DNA of 64,000 bases from Streptomyces sp. NBC_01439 (GTDB taxonomy: Bacteria > Actinomycetota > Actinomycetes > Streptomycetales > Streptomycetaceae), in the NCBI RefSeq assembly GCF_036227605.1, contig NZ_CP109487.1, positions 2,852,001-2,916,000 on the forward strand, read 5' to 3'. The translations under genes and the position numbers were made by a program. The notes under the pieces were generated by a model, which was not told where the DNA came from, ran no database searches, and saw only the letters and a list, made by a program, of their open reading frames with translations. This document shows positions 36,125 through 43,363 of the stretch, piece by piece; the stretch's first letter is position 1, and every line of letters starts with the position of its first letter.

Positions 36125-37384
36125 TCAGCGCGCCCTCGGTCCCGCAGTCCGCCCGAAGTGCCGGGCGGTGGGTACGAGGGCGGCCGCGGCGGGTGCGAGG
36201 AAGCAGGCCGCGGCGCACACGGCGAGGACCGGGGTGACGCCGATGGTGTCGATGGCCGGGGCGATGAGGGCGAGGCCCACCGGGGCGAAGCCGTAGGACA
36301 GCAGGAAGTCCAGCGAGGAGACGCGGGCGAGCTTGTCCGGGGCGACCTCGCGCTGGGTGGCCGTGAACCAGGGCACGTTGAACAGCTCGATCCCGATTCC
36401 GGCCACGGCGTAGGCCGCGATGACCACGGCCGGGTGCACCGGCAGCATCAGGCTCAGCGGCGCGAAGCCGTAAACGGCCAGGCCGGCGAAGGCGCTCCAG
36501 CCCTGGGAGCGGGGCCGCCGGCGGGCGGTGACCAGGGCCCCGCCGAGCGCGCCCACGGTGTAGGCGGTCATGGCCGCGGCCATGACCCACCCGGCGCCGT
36601 AGCGGTCGCGGCTGATGAGGGGCAGGGCAACGCTGGTGGCGGAGTAGCCGAGCGCTATCACGGTGGTCAGGGCGCCGAGTCCGGCGAGGAACCAGGGGTG
36701 GCGGCGGGCCTCGCGCATGCCGTCGACGAACTCGGCACGCAGGGACGCGCGCGGGGCGGGGGCCGCCGCTTCGGCGGTCGGAGCGCCGCGGCCCGGCAGG
36801 AAGGCGGCGACCAGCCAGAGCAGGCCGATCCCCAGCAGCAGCGTCCCCACGTCGACGAACGCCGCCAGCAGCGCCGTCAGGGTGGGGCCCGCGAGCGTGG
36901 AGGTCCGTACCGCCATGGTCATGGCGGCATTGGCCTGGTGCCTTCGGTCGGCGGCGACGACCTCGGCGGTGAGCGCCTGGAAGGCGGGGCGGCAGGCCCC
37001 CTGACCCGCGCCCGCGAGGGCGGCGGCCAGGGTCATCACCAGCAGCGACCGACCGAGGCCGAGGGCGAGGAGCGGGGCGGCGGACGCGGCTGCGAGGGCG
37101 GACCAGAGCACGACGGCCCGGCGTGCATGACGGTCGGCCAGCACCCCGCCGACGGCGACGGCGACGAGGAAGCCGGCGGTGCGTGCCGCGAGGACCAGGC
37201 CCAGGCCGGCTGCACCGAGTTCCCGGTGCAGGACGGCGAGACCCAGGACGAAGGGCAGCGCCCAGGTCGCGAGTCCGGAGGCGGTGGTGCCCGTCCAAAG
37301 GCGCAGGAAGGCGGTGTCGCGCAGGACGGAACGCGCGGGCGGCGGGCCGGTCTTGGGCGTCGCGGGCACGGGTGTGGTCGCCAC
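36125..37384 (-). CDS. MFS exporter divergent from the metal-uptake operon
   Basis: 419 aa from GTG 37384 with AGGAG nine bases upstream. Twelve predicted membrane segments; the loop GGVLADRHARRAVVLW carries the MFS A-motif and GACRPAFQALTAEVVAADRRHQANAAM resembles the enterobactin-exporter (EntS-like) branch of the family. It shares a 160-bp promoter region, with a Zur-like palindrome in the middle, with the operon starting at 37545. This layout suggests secretion of a small molecule that the operon makes and recaptures. Confidence 0.85.
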   Translation of the reverse strand: MATTPVPATPKTGPPPARSVLRDTAFLRLWTGTTASGLATWALPFVLGLAVLHRELGAAGLGLVLAARTAGFLVAVAVGGVLADRHARRAVVLWSALAAASAAPLLALGLGRSLLVMTLAAALAGAGQGACRPAFQALTAEVVAADRRHQANAAMTMAVRTSTLAGPTLTALLAAFVDVGTLLLGIGLLWLVAAFLPGRGAPTAEAAAPAPRASLRAEFVDGMREARRHPWFLAGLGALTTVIALGYSATSVALPLISRDRYGAGWVMAAAMTAYTVGALGGALVTARRRPRSQGWSAFAGLAVYGFAPLSLMLPVHPAVVIAAYAVAGIGIELFNVPWFTATQREVAPDKLARVSSLDFLLSYGFAPVGLALIAPAIDTIGVTPVLAVCAAACFLAPAAAALVPTARHFGRTAGPRAR

Positions 37385-37451
37385 GGTGGGGTGCTCCTGA
37401 TTCGTCGGCAGGTCGCGGGTCGCGGTTCGGTGAACCTCGACCCGGGGGTGT

Positions 37452-37472
37452 TAATGAAAACGATAACCATTA
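37452..37472. promoter_or_regulatory. Zur-box-like palindrome in a divergent promoter
   Basis: TAATG-N11-CATTA, with the inner sequence AAAACGATAAC. It shares TGAAAA.GAT with the Streptomyces Zur consensus TGAAAATGATTTTCA. It is 68 bp from the MFS start and 72 bp from the lipoprotein start. It is locally A+T-rich in otherwise G+C-rich DNA. Confidence 0.55.
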
Positions 37473-37544
37473 CAGTACCCTTCGAACGCGGCACTCCTGC
37501 CCGGTGCACGACCACACCCACGCTCTTCCCAGACCGGAGAACCC

Positions 37545-38579
37545 ATGCGCCACCGCGCCCGGATCGGCATTCCCCTCGCACTCACCCTGGCCCTGGCCCT
37601 CGCCACCACGGGCTGCTCGACCCCCACCGACGACCACGCGCCGAAGGGCGAACCCGCCGCCCGGACGGCGGCACTCGACAGTTGCGGGCGGCAGTTCTCC
37701 TTCGACCGTCCCCCGCAGCGCGCCGTCGCCCTGGACCAGACCTCGACCGAAACCCTGCTGGAACTCGGGCTTCAGGACCGGATGGCCGGGACGGCCAACC
37801 TCAAGACGAAGATCCCCGCGCAGTACCAGGACGCCTATGCCAAGGTCCCGGTCATCGCCCCCAAGATCGCCACCGGCGAGCAACTGCGCGCGACCGCAGC
37901 CGACTTCGTGGTGGCCGGCTCCACCGACCTCTACACGAAGGACCGCGCCGGCACCCGCGAGGAACTGGCCGCCTTCGGAGTCCCCAGCTTCGTCAGCGCG
38001 GTGGACTGCCCGCAGCAGAACGAGGCCGGGAAGACCCCCTTCGAACTGCTCTTCTCCGACTACGAACAGCTCGGCAAGGTCTTCGGCGGCGAGGAACGGG
38101 CCGGCCGGCTCGCCCAGGAGCAGCGCGCCGCCGTCGCGAAGGCCGCCGAGAACGCCGCCGGGGCCACCGCCCGGGGCGGTAAGCAGCCCACCGTCGTCTA
38201 CCTCTACTCGGTCTTCAACGGCATGCCCTACGTCGCCGGCCGGACCGGTCTGCCCAGTGAGATGAGCCGGATCGTCGGCGCGAAGAACGCCTTCGACGAC
38301 GTGGCCGAGGACTGGCCCGAGGTCTCCTGGGAGGAAGTCGCCCGGCGCGACCCGGACTTCATCGTGATCGGCGATCTGAGCGAGCGCGGCCGGCCCGGCG
38401 ACAGCGCCGCCGAGAAGCGCGCCACGATGGCCGCGGACCCGCTGGTCTCCAAGCTGGCGGCGGTCCGCGAGAACAGGATCATCGAGGTGCCGGGCATCGA
38501 ACTGGACCCCTCCGTACGCTCCGTGCACGCCCTGGGGCTGCTGGCCGCGGGGATGAAGGACCTCGGACATGTCCGCTGA
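37545..38579 (+). CDS. Metal/metallophore-binding lipoprotein (FecB/BtuF type)
   Basis: 344 aa with a lipoprotein signal peptide: basic start, hydrophobic core and lipobox ATTGC at about residue 21-25. The mature part is a PF01497-type periplasmic-binding fold (RAVALDQTSTETLLELGLQDRMAG ... PDFIVIGDLSER ... VRSVHALGLLAAGMKDL). It is the extracellular receptor for the FecCD-type importer encoded next; the ligand could be a metallophore, haem or cobamide. First gene of a six-gene operon: the permease ATG lies inside its 3' end (11-base overlap). Confidence 0.9.
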   Translation: MRHRARIGIPLALTLALALATTGCSTPTDDHAPKGEPAARTAALDSCGRQFSFDRPPQRAVALDQTSTETLLELGLQDRMAGTANLKTKIPAQYQDAYAKVPVIAPKIATGEQLRATAADFVVAGSTDLYTKDRAGTREELAAFGVPSFVSAVDCPQQNEAGKTPFELLFSDYEQLGKVFGGEERAGRLAQEQRAAVAKAAENAAGATARGGKQPTVVYLYSVFNGMPYVAGRTGLPSEMSRIVGAKNAFDDVAEDWPEVSWEEVARRDPDFIVIGDLSERGRPGDSAAEKRATMAADPLVSKLAAVRENRIIEVPGIELDPSVRSVHALGLLAAGMKDLGHVR

Positions 38580-39696
38580 CCCGGGGCCGGGGGTGATGGA
38601 CCTGCTGGTCCCGGCCGCCCGCGAGGTCCGGGTGGGTGCGCCGTCCGCGCCGCCGCGGGCCGCGCGGTCCGGCACACCGGCCCGGGTGGGGCTGTTCCTC
38701 ACCGGGGTGCTCGTACTGGTCGCCTCGGTGGCGGCGGGCACCCGTATCGGCAGCGCCGACGTGGGGTGGACCGACCTCGGCCGGGTGCTCGGCGCCCGGC
38801 TGGGCCTGGCCACCGAACCGCTGCCGCCGCTGCTGGACTCGCTCGTCTGGGACCTGCGGCTACCGCGGGTCTTGATGGCGGCCCTGGTCGGCGCCGCGCT
38901 GGCGGTCTGCGGCACCGTACTGCAGGCCGTCACCCGCAACGCGCTGGCCGACCCGTACCTGCTCGGGGTGTCCTCGGGGGCCTCGGTCGGAGCCGTCACC
39001 GTGGCCGTCCTGCCCCTGCCCCTGTCCGGGCTGGGCGCCGGAACGCTCGGGATCACCGGCGGCGCCCTCCTCGGCGCCCTGCTCTCCTTCGGCCTGCTGC
39101 TGGCGCTGTTGCACCGGACGGGCCTGGACTCGGTCCGCATCGTCCTCACCGGCGTGGTCGTCGGACAGCTCTTCACCGCCCTGACCTCGCTCGTCCTGAT
39201 GGCCTCGGCCGACGCCGACACCACGCGCGCCCTCACCCACTGGCTGCTGGGCTCGATGGCCCCGGCCCGCTGGGACGCCGTCGCGGTCTGCGCGGTCGTC
39301 ACCCCGCTGGGGCTCGCGGCCGCCTGGCTGTGCGCGAACGCCCTCGACGGGCTCGCGTTCGGCGCGGACACCGCCGCCTCGCTGGGGATCGCCGTACGAC
39401 GCACCCGGATGCTGCTGCTCGTGGTGACGGCCGTGCTGACCTCGGTGGCGGTGGCCACCGTCGGCGCCATCGGGTTCGTCGGGCTGATCGTCCCGCACGG
39501 GGTGCGCCTGCTGGCCGGTCCGCTGCACCGGGTGCTGCTCCCCCACGCGGCGCTCGCCGGCGCGGTGTTCCTGGTGTGGACCGACGCCCTGGCGCGGGTC
39601 GCCTTCGCGCCGCGCGAGATACCGGTCGGCGTGATCACCGCGCTGCTCGGCGTACCGCTGTTCCTCCTCGTCCTGCGCAGGAGGGGTGAGCTGTGA
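38569..39696 (+). CDS. FecCD-family ABC importer permease
   Basis: 375 aa. After a ~40-residue polar leader there are about ten membrane segments. Signature regions: LRLPRVLMAALVGAALAVCGTVLQAVTRNALADPYLLGVSSGA (coupling segment of BtuC/FecD permeases) and GAIGFVGLIVPHGVRLLAG. Overlaps both neighbours (11 bases upstream, GTGA downstream). Forms the membrane channel for the lipoprotein ligand. Confidence 0.92.
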   Translation: MSADPGPGVMDLLVPAAREVRVGAPSAPPRAARSGTPARVGLFLTGVLVLVASVAAGTRIGSADVGWTDLGRVLGARLGLATEPLPPLLDSLVWDLRLPRVLMAALVGAALAVCGTVLQAVTRNALADPYLLGVSSGASVGAVTVAVLPLPLSGLGAGTLGITGGALLGALLSFGLLLALLHRTGLDSVRIVLTGVVVGQLFTALTSLVLMASADADTTRALTHWLLGSMAPARWDAVAVCAVVTPLGLAAAWLCANALDGLAFGADTAASLGIAVRRTRMLLLVVTAVLTSVAVATVGAIGFVGLIVPHGVRLLAGPLHRVLLPHAALAGAVFLVWTDALARVAFAPREIPVGVITALLGVPLFLLVLRRRGEL

Positions 39697-40535
39697 GGAT
39701 CACCGCCGAAGACCTGAACTGGTCGGTCTCGGACACGCCCGTCGTCCGCGGGGTCGACCTGGACGTCGCGCCGGGCGAGACGGTCGGACTGATCGGCCCC
39801 AACGGCTCCGGCAAGTCCTCGTTGCTGCGCTGCCTGGCCGGGCTGCGCGTGCCCGACGCGGGCACGGTGCGCTACGACGACCGGTCGATACGGAACTGGA
39901 GCGCGCGCCGGATCGCCCGTCGGATCGCCTTCGTGGAACAGGACTCCGGATTCGGCTCCGACCTGCGCGTCGCCGACGTCGTGGGGCTGGGACGGACCCC
40001 CTTCCGCGACGGCCTGCGCGGACCGGACGCCACCGACCGGGCGGTCGTCGCGGCCGCGCTGGACCGCGTCGGCCTCACCGCGCTCGCCGGGCGCTCCTGG
40101 AAGGGCCTGTCGGGCGGCGAGCGGCAGCGCGCCCACATCGCCCGCGCGCTCGCCCAACAACCGTACGGTCTGCTCCTCGACGAGCCCACCAACCACCTGG
40201 ACGTCAAGCACCAGTTGGAGCTGATGGAACTGCTCGCCGGCACCCCGCAGACGGTCCTGGTCGCCCTGCACGACCTCACCCTGGCCGCCCGCCACTGCGA
40301 CCGGCTGCTGCTCATGCACCGGGGCCGCCTGATCGCCTCCGGCACCCCCGCCGCCGTCCTCACCGCCGAGCACCTGGCCCAGATCTTCGAGGTCGACGCC
40401 GAACTGGCCACCGACTCCCTGGGACGGCCCTCGGTGTCCTACCGCGGCCCCTTGCGCGCCGTCACGCCCGCCACCGCCCCCACACCCACACCCACACCCG
40501 TACCTCTTCCCGTACTCCGACAAGGAACGTCATGA
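39693..40535 (+). CDS. FecE/BtuD-type ABC importer ATPase
   Basis: 280 aa from GTG 39693. Walker A GPNGSGKSS (~36), Q-loop VEQDSG, signature LSGGERQRA, Walker B LLLDEPTNHLD and H-loop ALHDLT are all present. The C-terminus has an unusual TPTPTPTPVPLP tail, encoded by a CCCACA repeat, reaching into the start of the next gene. Overlaps the DUF364 gene by ATGA. Energises uptake through the FecCD permease. Confidence 0.93.
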   Translation: MRITAEDLNWSVSDTPVVRGVDLDVAPGETVGLIGPNGSGKSSLLRCLAGLRVPDAGTVRYDDRSIRNWSARRIARRIAFVEQDSGFGSDLRVADVVGLGRTPFRDGLRGPDATDRAVVAAALDRVGLTALAGRSWKGLSGGERQRAHIARALAQQPYGLLLDEPTNHLDVKHQLELMELLAGTPQTVLVALHDLTLAARHCDRLLLMHRGRLIASGTPAAVLTAEHLAQIFEVDAELATDSLGRPSVSYRGPLRAVTPATAPTPTPTPVPLPVLRQGTS

Positions 40536-41365
40536 CGAGCCACCCGACCACCGCGCCCGCACCGACCGTCGACTCCCTCGTCGCGGCCGTACTGGCCGGC
40601 GAACACGGCCCGCTGCCCTGCGAACTCGTGGCGACCAGCGTGTTCTGGATCCACCACGGCACCCGGCTCGCCGGCAGCGACACCACCTACCTCAACCAGT
40701 ACGTCCTGGTGCGCCTCGGCGGCTCCTTCGGCGGCTGCGCCTTCGAGGCCGGCGAGATCGACCCGACGATCTGCCGCGACTCCTCGGGCGCCCCGCTCGA
40801 CGTGCTGCTCCGCGAGGCTCCGCGCCCGCTGCGGATCGCCGCCCTCGACGCGTACCTGGCCGGGCAGCTCCCGCACCGCGACGCCGGGGCGGAGCCGCTC
40901 ACCCTCCCCGCGGGCACCCCCGAAGTGCGCGCCCGGGCCCGTGACGCGGCCATCGCCGGGCTGCTGGACATCCGCGCGGGCGCCCGGGTCGGCCTCATCG
41001 GCGTGGTGAACCCGCTGGTCGCGGCGATCCGCGAGCGGGGCGGCGTACCGCTGCCGTGCGACTTCAACCTGAGGTCCACCCAGTGGGGCGATCCCGTCAC
41101 CACCGACATGCACGAGGTGCTGGAGCGTGCCGACGCCGTCGTCGCCACCGGCATGACCCTCAGCAACGGTTCCTTCGACACCGTCCTCGACCGCTGCCGC
41201 ACCCGGGGCGTGCCCCTGGTCGTGTACGCACAGAGCGGCAGCGCGGTGGCCCGGGCCTTCCTCGGCTCCGGGGTGACCGCCCTGTCCGCGGAGCCCTTCC
41301 CCTTCTCCCAGTTCAGCGCTGACCCGACGACCCTGTACCGCTACCGGACGGCGGGGCAGCCGTGA
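40532..41365 (+). CDS. DUF4213/DUF364 Rossmann-like protein
   Basis: 277 aa. N-terminal DUF4213-like part (LVATSVFWIHHGTRLAGSDTTYLNQY, GEIDPTICRD) and C-terminal DUF364 Rossmann part (GARVGLIGVVNPLVAAIRERGGVPLPCDF ... ADAVVATGMTLSNGSFDTVLDRCR ... ALSAEPFPFSQFS). DUF364 has been called a heavy-metal chelation domain from a structure, but its reaction is not established. The order in the operon, between the ATPase and the kinase, suggests it is a biosynthetic or metal-handling step. Stop overlaps the kinase start (GTGA). Confidence 0.82.
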   Translation: MTSHPTTAPAPTVDSLVAAVLAGEHGPLPCELVATSVFWIHHGTRLAGSDTTYLNQYVLVRLGGSFGGCAFEAGEIDPTICRDSSGAPLDVLLREAPRPLRIAALDAYLAGQLPHRDAGAEPLTLPAGTPEVRARARDAAIAGLLDIRAGARVGLIGVVNPLVAAIRERGGVPLPCDFNLRSTQWGDPVTTDMHEVLERADAVVATGMTLSNGSFDTVLDRCRTRGVPLVVYAQSGSAVARAFLGSGVTALSAEPFPFSQFSADPTTLYRYRTAGQP

Positions 41366-42396
41366 CCGCTCCCCCCGCCCGCCGCGGCACCGGGCACGCC
41401 GCCTGCCACCACGGCGAGATCCTCCAGGGCGTCTTCCTCGACGCCACCGGGCGCCGGTGCGCCGGCCTGGTCACCCTGCCGATGACCGGGATGGGCAGCC
41501 GGGCCGAGTTCACCCGGCGTCCGGGCACCCCGCCGCAGCAGCTCACCGTCGTACCGGGCGACCGTACGAAGGCCGCCCGGGCGGCGGCCCTCACCGTCGC
41601 GGAATGCGCGCGGCGGCATCGGGAGCCGCCCTGCGGAGGGGAGTTGCGGATCACCGGGGACATCCCGGTGGGACTCGGCATGGGGAGCTCCACCAGTGAT
41701 GTCATCGCCGTCGTGCGCGCGGTCGCGGACTCCTACGGGGTGCGGCTGGCACCCGGTACCGTCGCCCGGCTGGCAGTGCGCGCCGAACTGGCCTGCGACC
41801 CGCTGATGCTCGACGCCCGCCCGGCGCTCTTCGCCCAGCGCGAGGGGCGGGTGCTGGAGGTCCTCGGCCCCCGCCTGCCGCCGCTGGTCGTCGTGGGCTG
41901 CGCCCTGGGCGGGGGCTCGCCCGTGGACACCCTCGCCCTGCCGGCGCGTACGTACGACGAGAGCGAGGTGCGCGCCTTCGAACGGCTGCGCGCCCTGCTG
42001 CGGCGGGCCGTGGCCAAGGGCGACGCGGCCCTGCTGGGCCAGGTCGCGACCGCCAGCGCGCGACGGGGCCAACAACTCCTGCGTCACCCGGAGTTCGACA
42101 CGCTGGCCGGCATCGGCCGGCGGCTCGGGGCCCTGGGGGTCCAGATCGCGCACAGCGGTGCGGTGGCCGGTCTGCTCCTCGACCCGGCGGCCCCGGGCCT
42201 GCACCACCGGATCCGCGGCTGCGTGCGGGCCCTGGACAGCAACGGCATCGCCGCGACCCGCGTCTTCACGACCTTCCCACCCCTCCCGCCCCTCCCGACG
42301 ACCCAGGAGTTCTCCAGTGGACCAGCACATTGCGGAGGCCGTCGGCCGTCCCGACCTGATACGCCTCGACGACCGGCTCGTCTGCCTGCGCTTTGA
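41362..42396 (+). CDS. GHMP-superfamily kinase, L-threonine kinase (PduX)-like
   Basis: 344 aa from GTG 41362. The N-terminal CHHGEILQGVF resembles the GTCGELVQG motif of PduX; the phosphate-binding loop PVGLGMGSSTSDVIAVVRAV is the GHMP P-GLG-SS-T motif of threonine kinases; the C-terminal region HSGAVAGLLLDP is the third GHMP motif. It should phosphorylate the side-chain hydroxyl of threonine, serine or a related amino acid. The last ~27 residues lie in the overlap with the next gene (80 bases) and look unconserved (Pro/Arg-rich), so the functional protein may end near residue 315. Confidence 0.85.
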   Translation: MTAPPARRGTGHAACHHGEILQGVFLDATGRRCAGLVTLPMTGMGSRAEFTRRPGTPPQQLTVVPGDRTKAARAAALTVAECARRHREPPCGGELRITGDIPVGLGMGSSTSDVIAVVRAVADSYGVRLAPGTVARLAVRAELACDPLMLDARPALFAQREGRVLEVLGPRLPPLVVVGCALGGGSPVDTLALPARTYDESEVRAFERLRALLRRAVAKGDAALLGQVATASARRGQQLLRHPEFDTLAGIGRRLGALGVQIAHSGAVAGLLLDPAAPGLHHRIRGCVRALDSNGIAATRVFTTFPPLPPLPTTQEFSSGPAHCGGRRPSRPDTPRRPARLPAL

Positions 42397-43363
42397 AACC
42401 ATGAAGGTCGTCTCCGCCCTCGCCGCGGTCCGCCACCTGCTCGACACGGGGGTGGTGCGGCGCGGGGACACGCTGCTGGACAGCTCCAGCGGGATCTACG
42501 CGTACGCCCTCGCGCTGGCCTGCCACCGCCACGGGATGCGCTGCCACATCGTCGGATCGACGACCGTCGACCGCACGCTCTGCGCCCAACTGGCCGTGCT
42601 CGGGGCGACGCTGGAGCGGATGGAGCCCTGCGAGGACCTGAAGTTGGACCAGAAGCGGCGGGTCGAGCGCATCCACGAGATCCTCGCGGAGCACCCCGAG
42701 TACCACTGGATGCGGCAGTACCACGACGACATCCACTACCTGGGCTACCGGGCGGTGGCCGAGCGGATCCGGCGGTCGACCGGCGGGGACGCCCTGACCC
42801 TGGTCGGCGGGGTCGGCTCGGGCGCCTCCACCGGGGCCCTCGCCCGCTATCTGAGGGAGGACTCCCCCGATGTCGAACTCGTCGGTGTGCAGCCCTTCGG
42901 CAGTGTCACCTTCGGCTCCGAGCACGTGGCCGACCCCGAGATCATCATCGCCGGGATCGGCAGCTCCATCCCCTTCGGGAACGTCAGCCACGCGTCCTAC
43001 GACACGCTCCACTGGATCTCCTTCGACGCCGCGCTGTCCGGCAGCGTCGACCTGTTGCGGCGGCACGCGGTCTTCGCCGGCCTGTCCACCGGGGCCGGTT
43101 ACCTCGCCGCCCGCTGGGAACGGGCCCGGGCGCCGCAACGCACGGTCCTCTTCATCGCCGCCGACACCGGCCACCGGTACGTGGACGGCGTGTACGCCCG
43201 CCACCGGGAAGCGGCCGCCGTCGACTCCCTGACGCCGCACCAGGTCACGGATCGGGCCGAACTCGCGCTCCCCTGGTCCCGGATGCGCTGGAACCGGGCC
43301 CCGGACGCACGGCCGACCGATCGGCCCCGTCCACCGACCCGTTCAGCCATCAGTCACGAATGA
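42317..43363 (+). CDS. PLP-dependent cysteine-synthase-like enzyme (SbnA-type)
   Basis: 348 aa from GTG 42317 (AGGAG seven bases upstream). Fold type II PLP enzyme: probable Schiff-base lysine Lys30 in RFETMKVVSALAAV, substrate loop DSSSGIYAYALALA (replacing the TSGNTGIALA of cysteine synthases) and phosphate cup GGVGSGASTGALARYL (~165). With the kinase before it, the likely chemistry is beta-replacement of a phosphorylated hydroxy amino acid, as SbnA does with O-phosphoserine. The product here is not known. Starts 80 bases inside the kinase gene and ends the operon. Confidence 0.85.
   Translation: MDQHIAEAVGRPDLIRLDDRLVCLRFETMKVVSALAAVRHLLDTGVVRRGDTLLDSSSGIYAYALALACHRHGMRCHIVGSTTVDRTLCAQLAVLGATLERMEPCEDLKLDQKRRVERIHEILAEHPEYHWMRQYHDDIHYLGYRAVAERIRRSTGGDALTLVGGVGSGASTGALARYLREDSPDVELVGVQPFGSVTFGSEHVADPEIIIAGIGSSIPFGNVSHASYDTLHWISFDAALSGSVDLLRRHAVFAGLSTGAGYLAARWERARAPQRTVLFIAADTGHRYVDGVYARHREAAAVDSLTPHQVTDRAELALPWSRMRWNRAPDARPTDRPRPPTRSAISHE

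Follow-up and report, generated by a model that had tools for sequence, protein, structure and literature searches.

A candidate Zur-controlled metallophore operon of Streptomyces and its recurrent pair of DUF364 and SbnA-like genes

The window analyzed here, a stretch of 64,000 nucleotides of Streptomyces sp. NBC_01439 (positions 2852001-2916000 of a single-contig, 9.58-Mb genome), contains six overlapping genes on the + strand and a divergent transporter gene; we consider it likely that together they form a Zur-controlled operon through which a small metallophore, most likely a zincophore, is made, exported and taken up again. Across related loci the genes for a DUF364 protein and for an SbnA-like pyridoxal phosphate (PLP) enzyme are the constants, while importers and partner enzymes vary. 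We hold a broader proposal with about even confidence: DUF364 and the SbnA-like enzyme, the latter lacking a characteristic asparagine, would be the conserved core of an undescribed class of Zur-controlled zincophores, found in ∼40% of sampled Streptomyces (83/199) in several architectures. In this class the importers (two FecBCD types, Opp/Nik) and the decorating enzymes (GHMP kinase, ATP-grasp ligase with dipeptide epimerase, methyltransferase, oxygenase) would be exchanged, and DUF364 would join or modify the product of the PLP enzyme, perhaps with an adenosyl cofactor.

All seven genes lie where the initial annotation of the window had placed them. The divergent gene codes for a major facilitator superfamily (MFS) transporter, presumed to be an exporter (36125-37384, - strand; PF07690, 100.6 bits), with an orthologue in 70 of 80 related loci. 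The + strand genes code for a FecB-type substrate-binding lipoprotein (37545-38579; PF01497, 92.9 bits; lipobox-like TTGCS), a FecCD permease (38569-39696; PF01032, 285 bits), the ATP-binding cassette (ABC) ATPase of the importer (39693-40535; PF00005, 118 bits), the DUF364 protein, a presumed biosynthetic enzyme with enolase-N-like and Rossmann-like domains (40532-41365), a small-molecule kinase of GHMP fold (41362-42396; PF00288, 49 bits; conserved motifs HHGE-x-x-QG and GxGSS) and the SbnA-like PLP enzyme of fold type II, without the usual SSGN asparagine (42317-43363; PF00291, 113 bits). From the binding-protein gene to the PLP gene, successive genes overlap by 11, 4, 4, 4 and 80 bases; the start codon of the PLP gene, a GTG at 42317, follows an AGGAG. 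Binding protein, permease and ATPase stand together as in a FecBCD-type importer. The best NCBIfam matches of these subunits are the EitABC siderophore and 'F420-0' ABC families, all below curated cut-offs (nearest to the ATPase is EitC, 284 bits, below the cut-off of 485).

A complete lack of co-occurrence in other genomes had been named beforehand as fatal to a metallophore proposal; we found, on the contrary, that the genes co-occur widely. A search with the PLP protein gave 198 relatives; the set used here is the best 80 of them, so that co-occurrence in it is conditioned on PLP similarity. The kinase gene adjoins the PLP gene in 80/80 of these loci and the DUF364 gene in 77/80; the three others (L017, L043, L055) end at a contig edge. 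The host range includes Streptomyces (most loci), Kitasatospora, Saccharopolyspora, Amycolatopsis, Pseudonocardia, Actinopolyspora and Thermocrispum; Streptomyces avidinii, virginiae and xanthophaeus (L003, L005, L007) are among the relatives with the operon. In 46 loci the importer matches the window's type, and in 25 it belongs to a more distant FecBCD type, with 36-49% identity in the permease; none was seen in nine, L057 and L064 being among these despite full-length stretches. A methyltransferase of ∼250 residues (PF05175 at or below cut-off, weak HemK-like matches) stands ahead of DUF364 in ∼20 loci; counts of such extra genes are approximate, as they come from rough gene calls by codon-position guanine-cytosine (GC) content. 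On a Tsukamurella plasmid (L082) we saw another order: importer, DUF364, MFS, a hypothetical protein in the kinase position and PLP, with a Zur-like box scoring 36.1.

Searched with the DUF364 profile, 83 of 199 genomes of the same genus gave 88 matches; across the phylum, matches were found in 7 of 396 genomes, six of these again from the same genus. Scoring was limited to the best candidates of each genome, and both tallies may therefore be low. Two matches were pieces of one gene, and 87 DUF364 loci were taken, 85 of which have the DUF364 kind discussed here; L199 and L200, weak profile matches without PLP gene or box, are counted in the 87 and were excluded from the 85. The 85 loci fall into a first type (34 loci, 12 of which coincide with PLP-selected loci) and a second type (51 loci). 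This coincidence, together with the Streptomyces hosts of the PLP-selected loci, is the ground for taking the genus as Streptomyces. A PLP gene lies ≤2.5 kb from the DUF364 gene in 84/85 loci, the exception (L204) being a contig of 6.7 kb, and importer genes, of one of three kinds, are present in 76/85.

The second type, first met on plasmids of Streptomyces angustmyceticus and Rhodococcus (examples are L137, L139, L138, L140 and L151-L170), combines genes for an ATP-grasp ligase, DUF364, the PLP enzyme, a dipeptide epimerase, an MFS transporter, a methyltransferase and an Opp/Nik-type ABC importer; all of these were seen together in 45/51 loci. Within the first type, nine loci show no kinase gene; 8/9 of them have a methyltransferase, and 7/9 have an importer, which is either of the Opp type or of the second FecBCD type. 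One of these kinase-less loci, L194, has a PhyH-type oxygenase and a Fur-family regulator as well. A constant DUF364-PLP pair with varying importers and partner enzymes is to be expected if the core is biosynthetic and its product, once decorated, requires an importer that fits it. We rejected the idea of one fixed six-gene system, kinase and importer being exchangeable. Of the kinase/PLP/DUF364 pathway that the initial annotation had proposed as a unit, DUF364 and PLP stood as the most constant part, whereas the kinase is replaced or unseen in other versions.

The same pairing bears on a different role for DUF364, that of a cytosolic factor unloading or loading the metal of the imported complex, the ligand then being made by the kinase and the PLP enzyme only. 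DUF364 genes of other prokaryotes have been linked to metal ABC transporters (PMC2954201, in the part of the text available), and in the window's operon the DUF364 gene comes directly behind the ATPase gene. However, DUF364 and PLP genes remain paired regardless of the kind of importer, and in second-type loci DUF364 has the ATP-grasp gene on one side and the PLP gene on the other, at a distance from the Opp genes. We find the unloading role rather doubtful and favor DUF364 as an enzyme of ligand biosynthesis.

Evidence for zinc control comes from the promoter region common to the operon and the MFS gene. It holds a palindrome, TAATGAAAACGATAACCATTA, at 37452-37472 (the distance is 67 bases to the start of the MFS gene and 72 bases to that of the binding-protein gene), a predicted 21-bp Zur box with the 7-1-7 core TGAAAACGATAACCA. 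Published Zur motifs are tGaNNatSatNNtCa for S. coelicolor and the 21-bp taaTGaNAANNNTTNtCANta for actinobacteria (accessible part of PMC5472717); a motif has also been published for C. glutamicum (PMC2823685, accessible part). With ≤2 mismatches the published core TGANAANNNTTNTCA, the center of taaTGaNAANNNTTNtCANta, was found in 64 of 71 regions upstream of MFS genes, versus ∼2% of Markov-resampled regions; the 71 regions include the window and come from related strains, hence they are mutually non-independent. Over the genome, the 15-bp S. coelicolor consensus TGAAAATGATTTTCA with ≤3 mismatches occurs at 13 places, two of them at znuA (assigned by PF01297, 273 bits). In the 9.58 Mb the looser pattern TGRAAAYGATWRYCA is matched exactly at two sites, the window's and one at znuA; at ≤2 mismatches it has 43 sites versus 11 for the reversed control. 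As TGRAAAYGATWRYCA was composed after the znuA site was known, these numbers describe a likeness and are not an independent test. In sequence, the palindrome resembles the znuA operator and fits the published Zur boxes.

We also trained a motif matrix on 29 distinct first-type sites and used it with a threshold of 22.5. Box counts for the first type are thus partly circular, while the results for second-type loci, for znuA promoters and for the published core are not. The two znuA sites of the genome itself score 24.1 and 21.6, and in the whole 64-kb window one position passes the threshold. Boxes scoring at least 22.5 were found in 72/80 PLP-selected loci (partly by construction), with the eight misses made up of seven contigs without the promoter region and L070 (20.7), and in the fetched stretches of 81/85 DUF364 loci. 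None of the second-type loci had entered the training; in 51/51 of them the best box lies ≤200 bases upstream of the ATP-grasp gene, the first of the set. As a control we took 20 stretches of about equal size, 335 kb in total, from 20 genomes carrying DUF364 loci. A single stretch had a box (24.4 bits), which sits directly upstream of a znuA gene (PF01297, 249 bits); in the control DNA, therefore, the motif picked up a zinc gene and nothing else. A box of 7-1-7 structure and 21 bp at the promoter, as is looked for in a Zur regulon, is present and conserved in relatives, and the Zur-like palindrome reported in the initial annotation is upheld by relatives, controls and znuA alike.

A gene for a regulator of Fur-family type stands inside or near some DUF364 systems (L194:10228-10659; similar ones in L190, L193, L198, L050 and L214); such genes were seen in 6/181 non-control loci searched, the family having been checked for one.

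Zinc and iron had both been under consideration. The best site for an IdeR-type iron box has 8/19 mismatches in the window and 6/19 in one of the 71 regions; we rejected iron control, there being no good site in either. Since no IdeR-type box was found and the box is of Zur type, zinc is the likelier metal, and the proposal stands in its gist with zinc favored over iron. One could argue instead that the ligand serves another metal (iron, cobalt, nickel, copper), or several, and is under other controls besides Zur; iron chelates are a common cargo of FecBCD importers, and the binding protein of the second type is NikA-like (143 bits, below the cut-off of 600). With a Zur-type box in place and IdeR-type sites this poor, such a ligand seems unlikely to us, and a zincophore remains the preferred product.

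Several observations weigh against the metallophore operon as proposed. The window's box departs from the published core at two positions, one of which is strongly conserved, and a strict search with TGAAAATGATTTTCA at ≤3 mismatches misses the site, which has four. For the first type a box was counted wherever in the fetched stretch it lay, and four of the 34 first-type loci (L193; L202, 21.8; L204; L236) are without a box at the threshold. In these 34 loci the kinase is of the window's type in 20, only 34-36% identical in five and not seen in nine (one of them a cut contig); where it is divergent or unseen, the proposed pathway does not cover the locus. Relatives of the PLP enzyme (47-63% identity) occur in clusters without box, DUF364 or importer. 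Locus L141 has a FecBCD importer, a PLP gene (61%) and ATP-grasp genes; neither DUF364 nor a kinase is annotated there, and its importer promoter lacks a box. The locus is possibly a third version of the system or a decayed one. It follows from L141 and from these relatives that metal uptake cannot be deduced from the PLP enzyme alone. Finally, the structure model of the PLP enzyme is poor (predicted local distance difference test, pLDDT, 68.5) and too weak for use.

Three clusters with PLP relatives of 47-63% identity (L088, L089, L142) have ATP-grasp and MFS genes; they lack annotated DUF364 and importer genes as well as a box at the cluster start, and probably make other small natural products.

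Importer-less clusters of this sort lead to another reading of the operon, in which the product of the kinase-PLP pair is an amino-acid antimetabolite for export, and the attachment of the importer is incidental. It would agree with kinase-PLP or PLP cassettes standing in NRPS (nonribosomal peptide synthetase), ATP-grasp and lyase clusters without importer, and with the absence of a Zur-like box at the cluster start in the three clusters just named; nevertheless, importer genes in 76 and Zur-like boxes in 81 of the 85 DUF364 loci make an antimetabolite very unlikely, and we retain the metallophore.

The labels 'PduX-like' and 'SbnA-like', given to the two enzymes initially, turned out to be loose: a GHMP kinase and an SbnA-type fold are there, yet no library match carried the name PduX, and against SbnA (TIGR03945) the PLP enzyme reaches 133 bits, short of the cut-off of 350 and thus outside that family. 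The Schiff-base lysine, Lys30, is invariant in 40/40 aligned PLP sequences. The position of the SSGN/TSGN asparagine is occupied by I in 29/40 and by T in 11/40; the best aligned PDB relative has GN. The N-terminal domain of the kinase scores 49 bits (cut-off 22.3) and the C-terminal domain 20.9, just below its cut-off of 21. Its NCBIfam matches, among which a PduX model is absent, are weak ones to galacto-, mevalonate, homoserine and shikimate kinases; the motif GELxQG is presumably common to the window's kinase and PduX.

PduX being a threonine kinase for cobamides, and the PLP enzyme having the cysteine-synthase fold, the pair might belong to a cobamide side-chain or cysteine pathway, an outcome that the initial annotation had itself set against its proposal. 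We consider it scarcely probable: no cobamide or cysteine gene was found among the neighbors scanned, the SSGN asparagine is lost, the scores of the PLP enzyme are far under the cysteine-synthase cut-offs and the operator is of zinc type. Moreover, related kinase-PLP pairs stand with genes of argininosuccinate-lyase type, ATP-grasp and NRPS genes, which speaks against a conserved cobamide or cysteine pathway and leaves the metallophore in place.

Examples of such pairs are found in Azospirillum, with ATP-grasp and argininosuccinate lyase genes, and in an NRPS cluster of Streptomyces sp. ITFR-16. The genome of the window has one as well (L136, ∼1.733-1.742 Mb): there, a GHMP kinase and a PLP enzyme (33% to that of the window) accompany an ATP-grasp region, NRPS-like genes and a Lyase_1 protein in a cluster that probably makes a diamino acid. 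Kinase-PLP pairs also occur on rhizobial and other plasmids (L083-L087; Mesorhizobium, Azospirillum, Rhizobium, Pantoea), by transketolase, lyase or ATP-grasp genes. The kinase-PLP-lyase cassettes may be read as phosphorylation, displacement by Asp and release of fumarate to give a diamino acid, a route known for diamino acids in natural products; a literature search on this route gave nothing on point among the matches listed.

The DUF364 protein scores 45 bits with PF04016 (gathering cut-off 23) and has the fold of this family, an enolase-N-like and a Rossmann-like domain. A sequence search of PDB with the DUF364 profile matched 3npg only. The known DUF364 proteins Dhaf4260 (3l5o) and PH1506 (3npg) are 14-19% identical to the window's protein; in the available portion of the text on them no PLP or kinase partner is mentioned. 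An acidic residue of the window's protein, D177, aligns with the Glu at the ribose-binding position, in keeping with the adenosyl cofactor suggested above.

The operon is flanked by a glyoxalase-family gene upstream and by an M20 peptidase gene downstream, on the opposite strand. No gene for an NRPS or an NRPS-independent siderophore (NIS) synthetase was found among nine proteins scanned, a full domain scan of the window not having been made. Promoter and terminator scans gave no matches, which says little in a high-GC actinomycete.

For the mechanism, we infer the product, the kinase substrate, the order of reactions and the chemistry of DUF364 as follows. With a drop in zinc, Zur would leave the shared operator and both transcripts would rise, as predicted from the operator. 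The GHMP kinase may phosphorylate an amino acid, for example Thr or Ser, on its hydroxyl; the SbnA-like enzyme would then exchange the phosphate for another amino acid, attached through its amino group, and an N-linked polycarboxylate amine would result. Some kinase-PLP cassettes have a gene of argininosuccinate-lyase type, expected to cleave an Asp adduct, and the window's operon has none, so the adduct may stay as a chelating group. The N-linked polycarboxylate could be the end product or its core; a compound of this kind would be chemically close to zinc chelators of the ethylenediaminedisuccinate (EDDS) and aspergillomarasmine type. The constant pairing of its gene with the PLP gene suggests that DUF364 carries out a further step on the product of the PLP enzyme. 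From their families, the MFS transporter would export the final compound, and the lipoprotein, FecCD permease and ATPase would recover its metal complex.

Parts of this scheme resemble known systems. In the staphyloferrin B pathway 2,3-diaminopropionate is made by the SbnA-SbnB route, for which there is a dedicated kinase, SbnI. The likeness is an SbnA-type PLP enzyme (the 133 bits above), presumed here, too, to act on a phosphorylated hydroxy amino acid; in difference, the window's PLP enzyme falls below the SbnA cut-off, has lost the SSGN asparagine and stands in an operon where no SbnB-type or NIS synthetase gene was seen. The kinase-PLP-lyase-ATP-grasp cassettes (L084, L085 and the one at 1.73 Mb of the same genome) have the two enzyme families side by side, as the window does, but with lyase and ATP-grasp genes present and with neither DUF364 nor a metal importer seen in the stretches. 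Staphylopine and pseudopaline (Cnt systems) are small amino-carboxylate metallophores with importers of their own. Second-type loci share with them an Opp/Nik-type importer (weak similarity to CntA, 52 bits), whereas the core seen here is DUF364 plus PLP, no search for CntL/CntM having been made. The S,S-EDDS (aes) system reportedly has an SbnA-like enzyme and, to our knowledge, neither DUF364 nor GHMP kinase; it was set beside the window's operon by description, not by sequence. According to the available part of PMC6103462, S,S-EDDS of Amycolatopsis japonicum is likewise a Zur-controlled small metallophore of an actinomycete, and pseudopaline is under Zur control too.

Zur-controlled metallophore systems are already known; the core found here is not described as far as the literature was checked, and none of the matches listed, with subscription papers and preprints outside the scope, described a DUF364-PLP-kinase metallophore. 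Genome mining easily overlooks metallophores whose synthesis involves neither NRPS nor NIS synthetases. Small zinc chelators of the aminocarboxylate class also attract pharmacological interest; metallo-beta-lactamases are inhibited by aspergillomarasmine A through its uptake of zinc (PMC8319579, available part). If the proposal is true, the pathway would be a compact one of two or three soluble enzymes, and the DUF364 family, long an orphan, would receive its first defined function. A DUF364 gene and a PLP gene behind a Zur box would then be a simple rule for locating such systems in a large share of Streptomyces.

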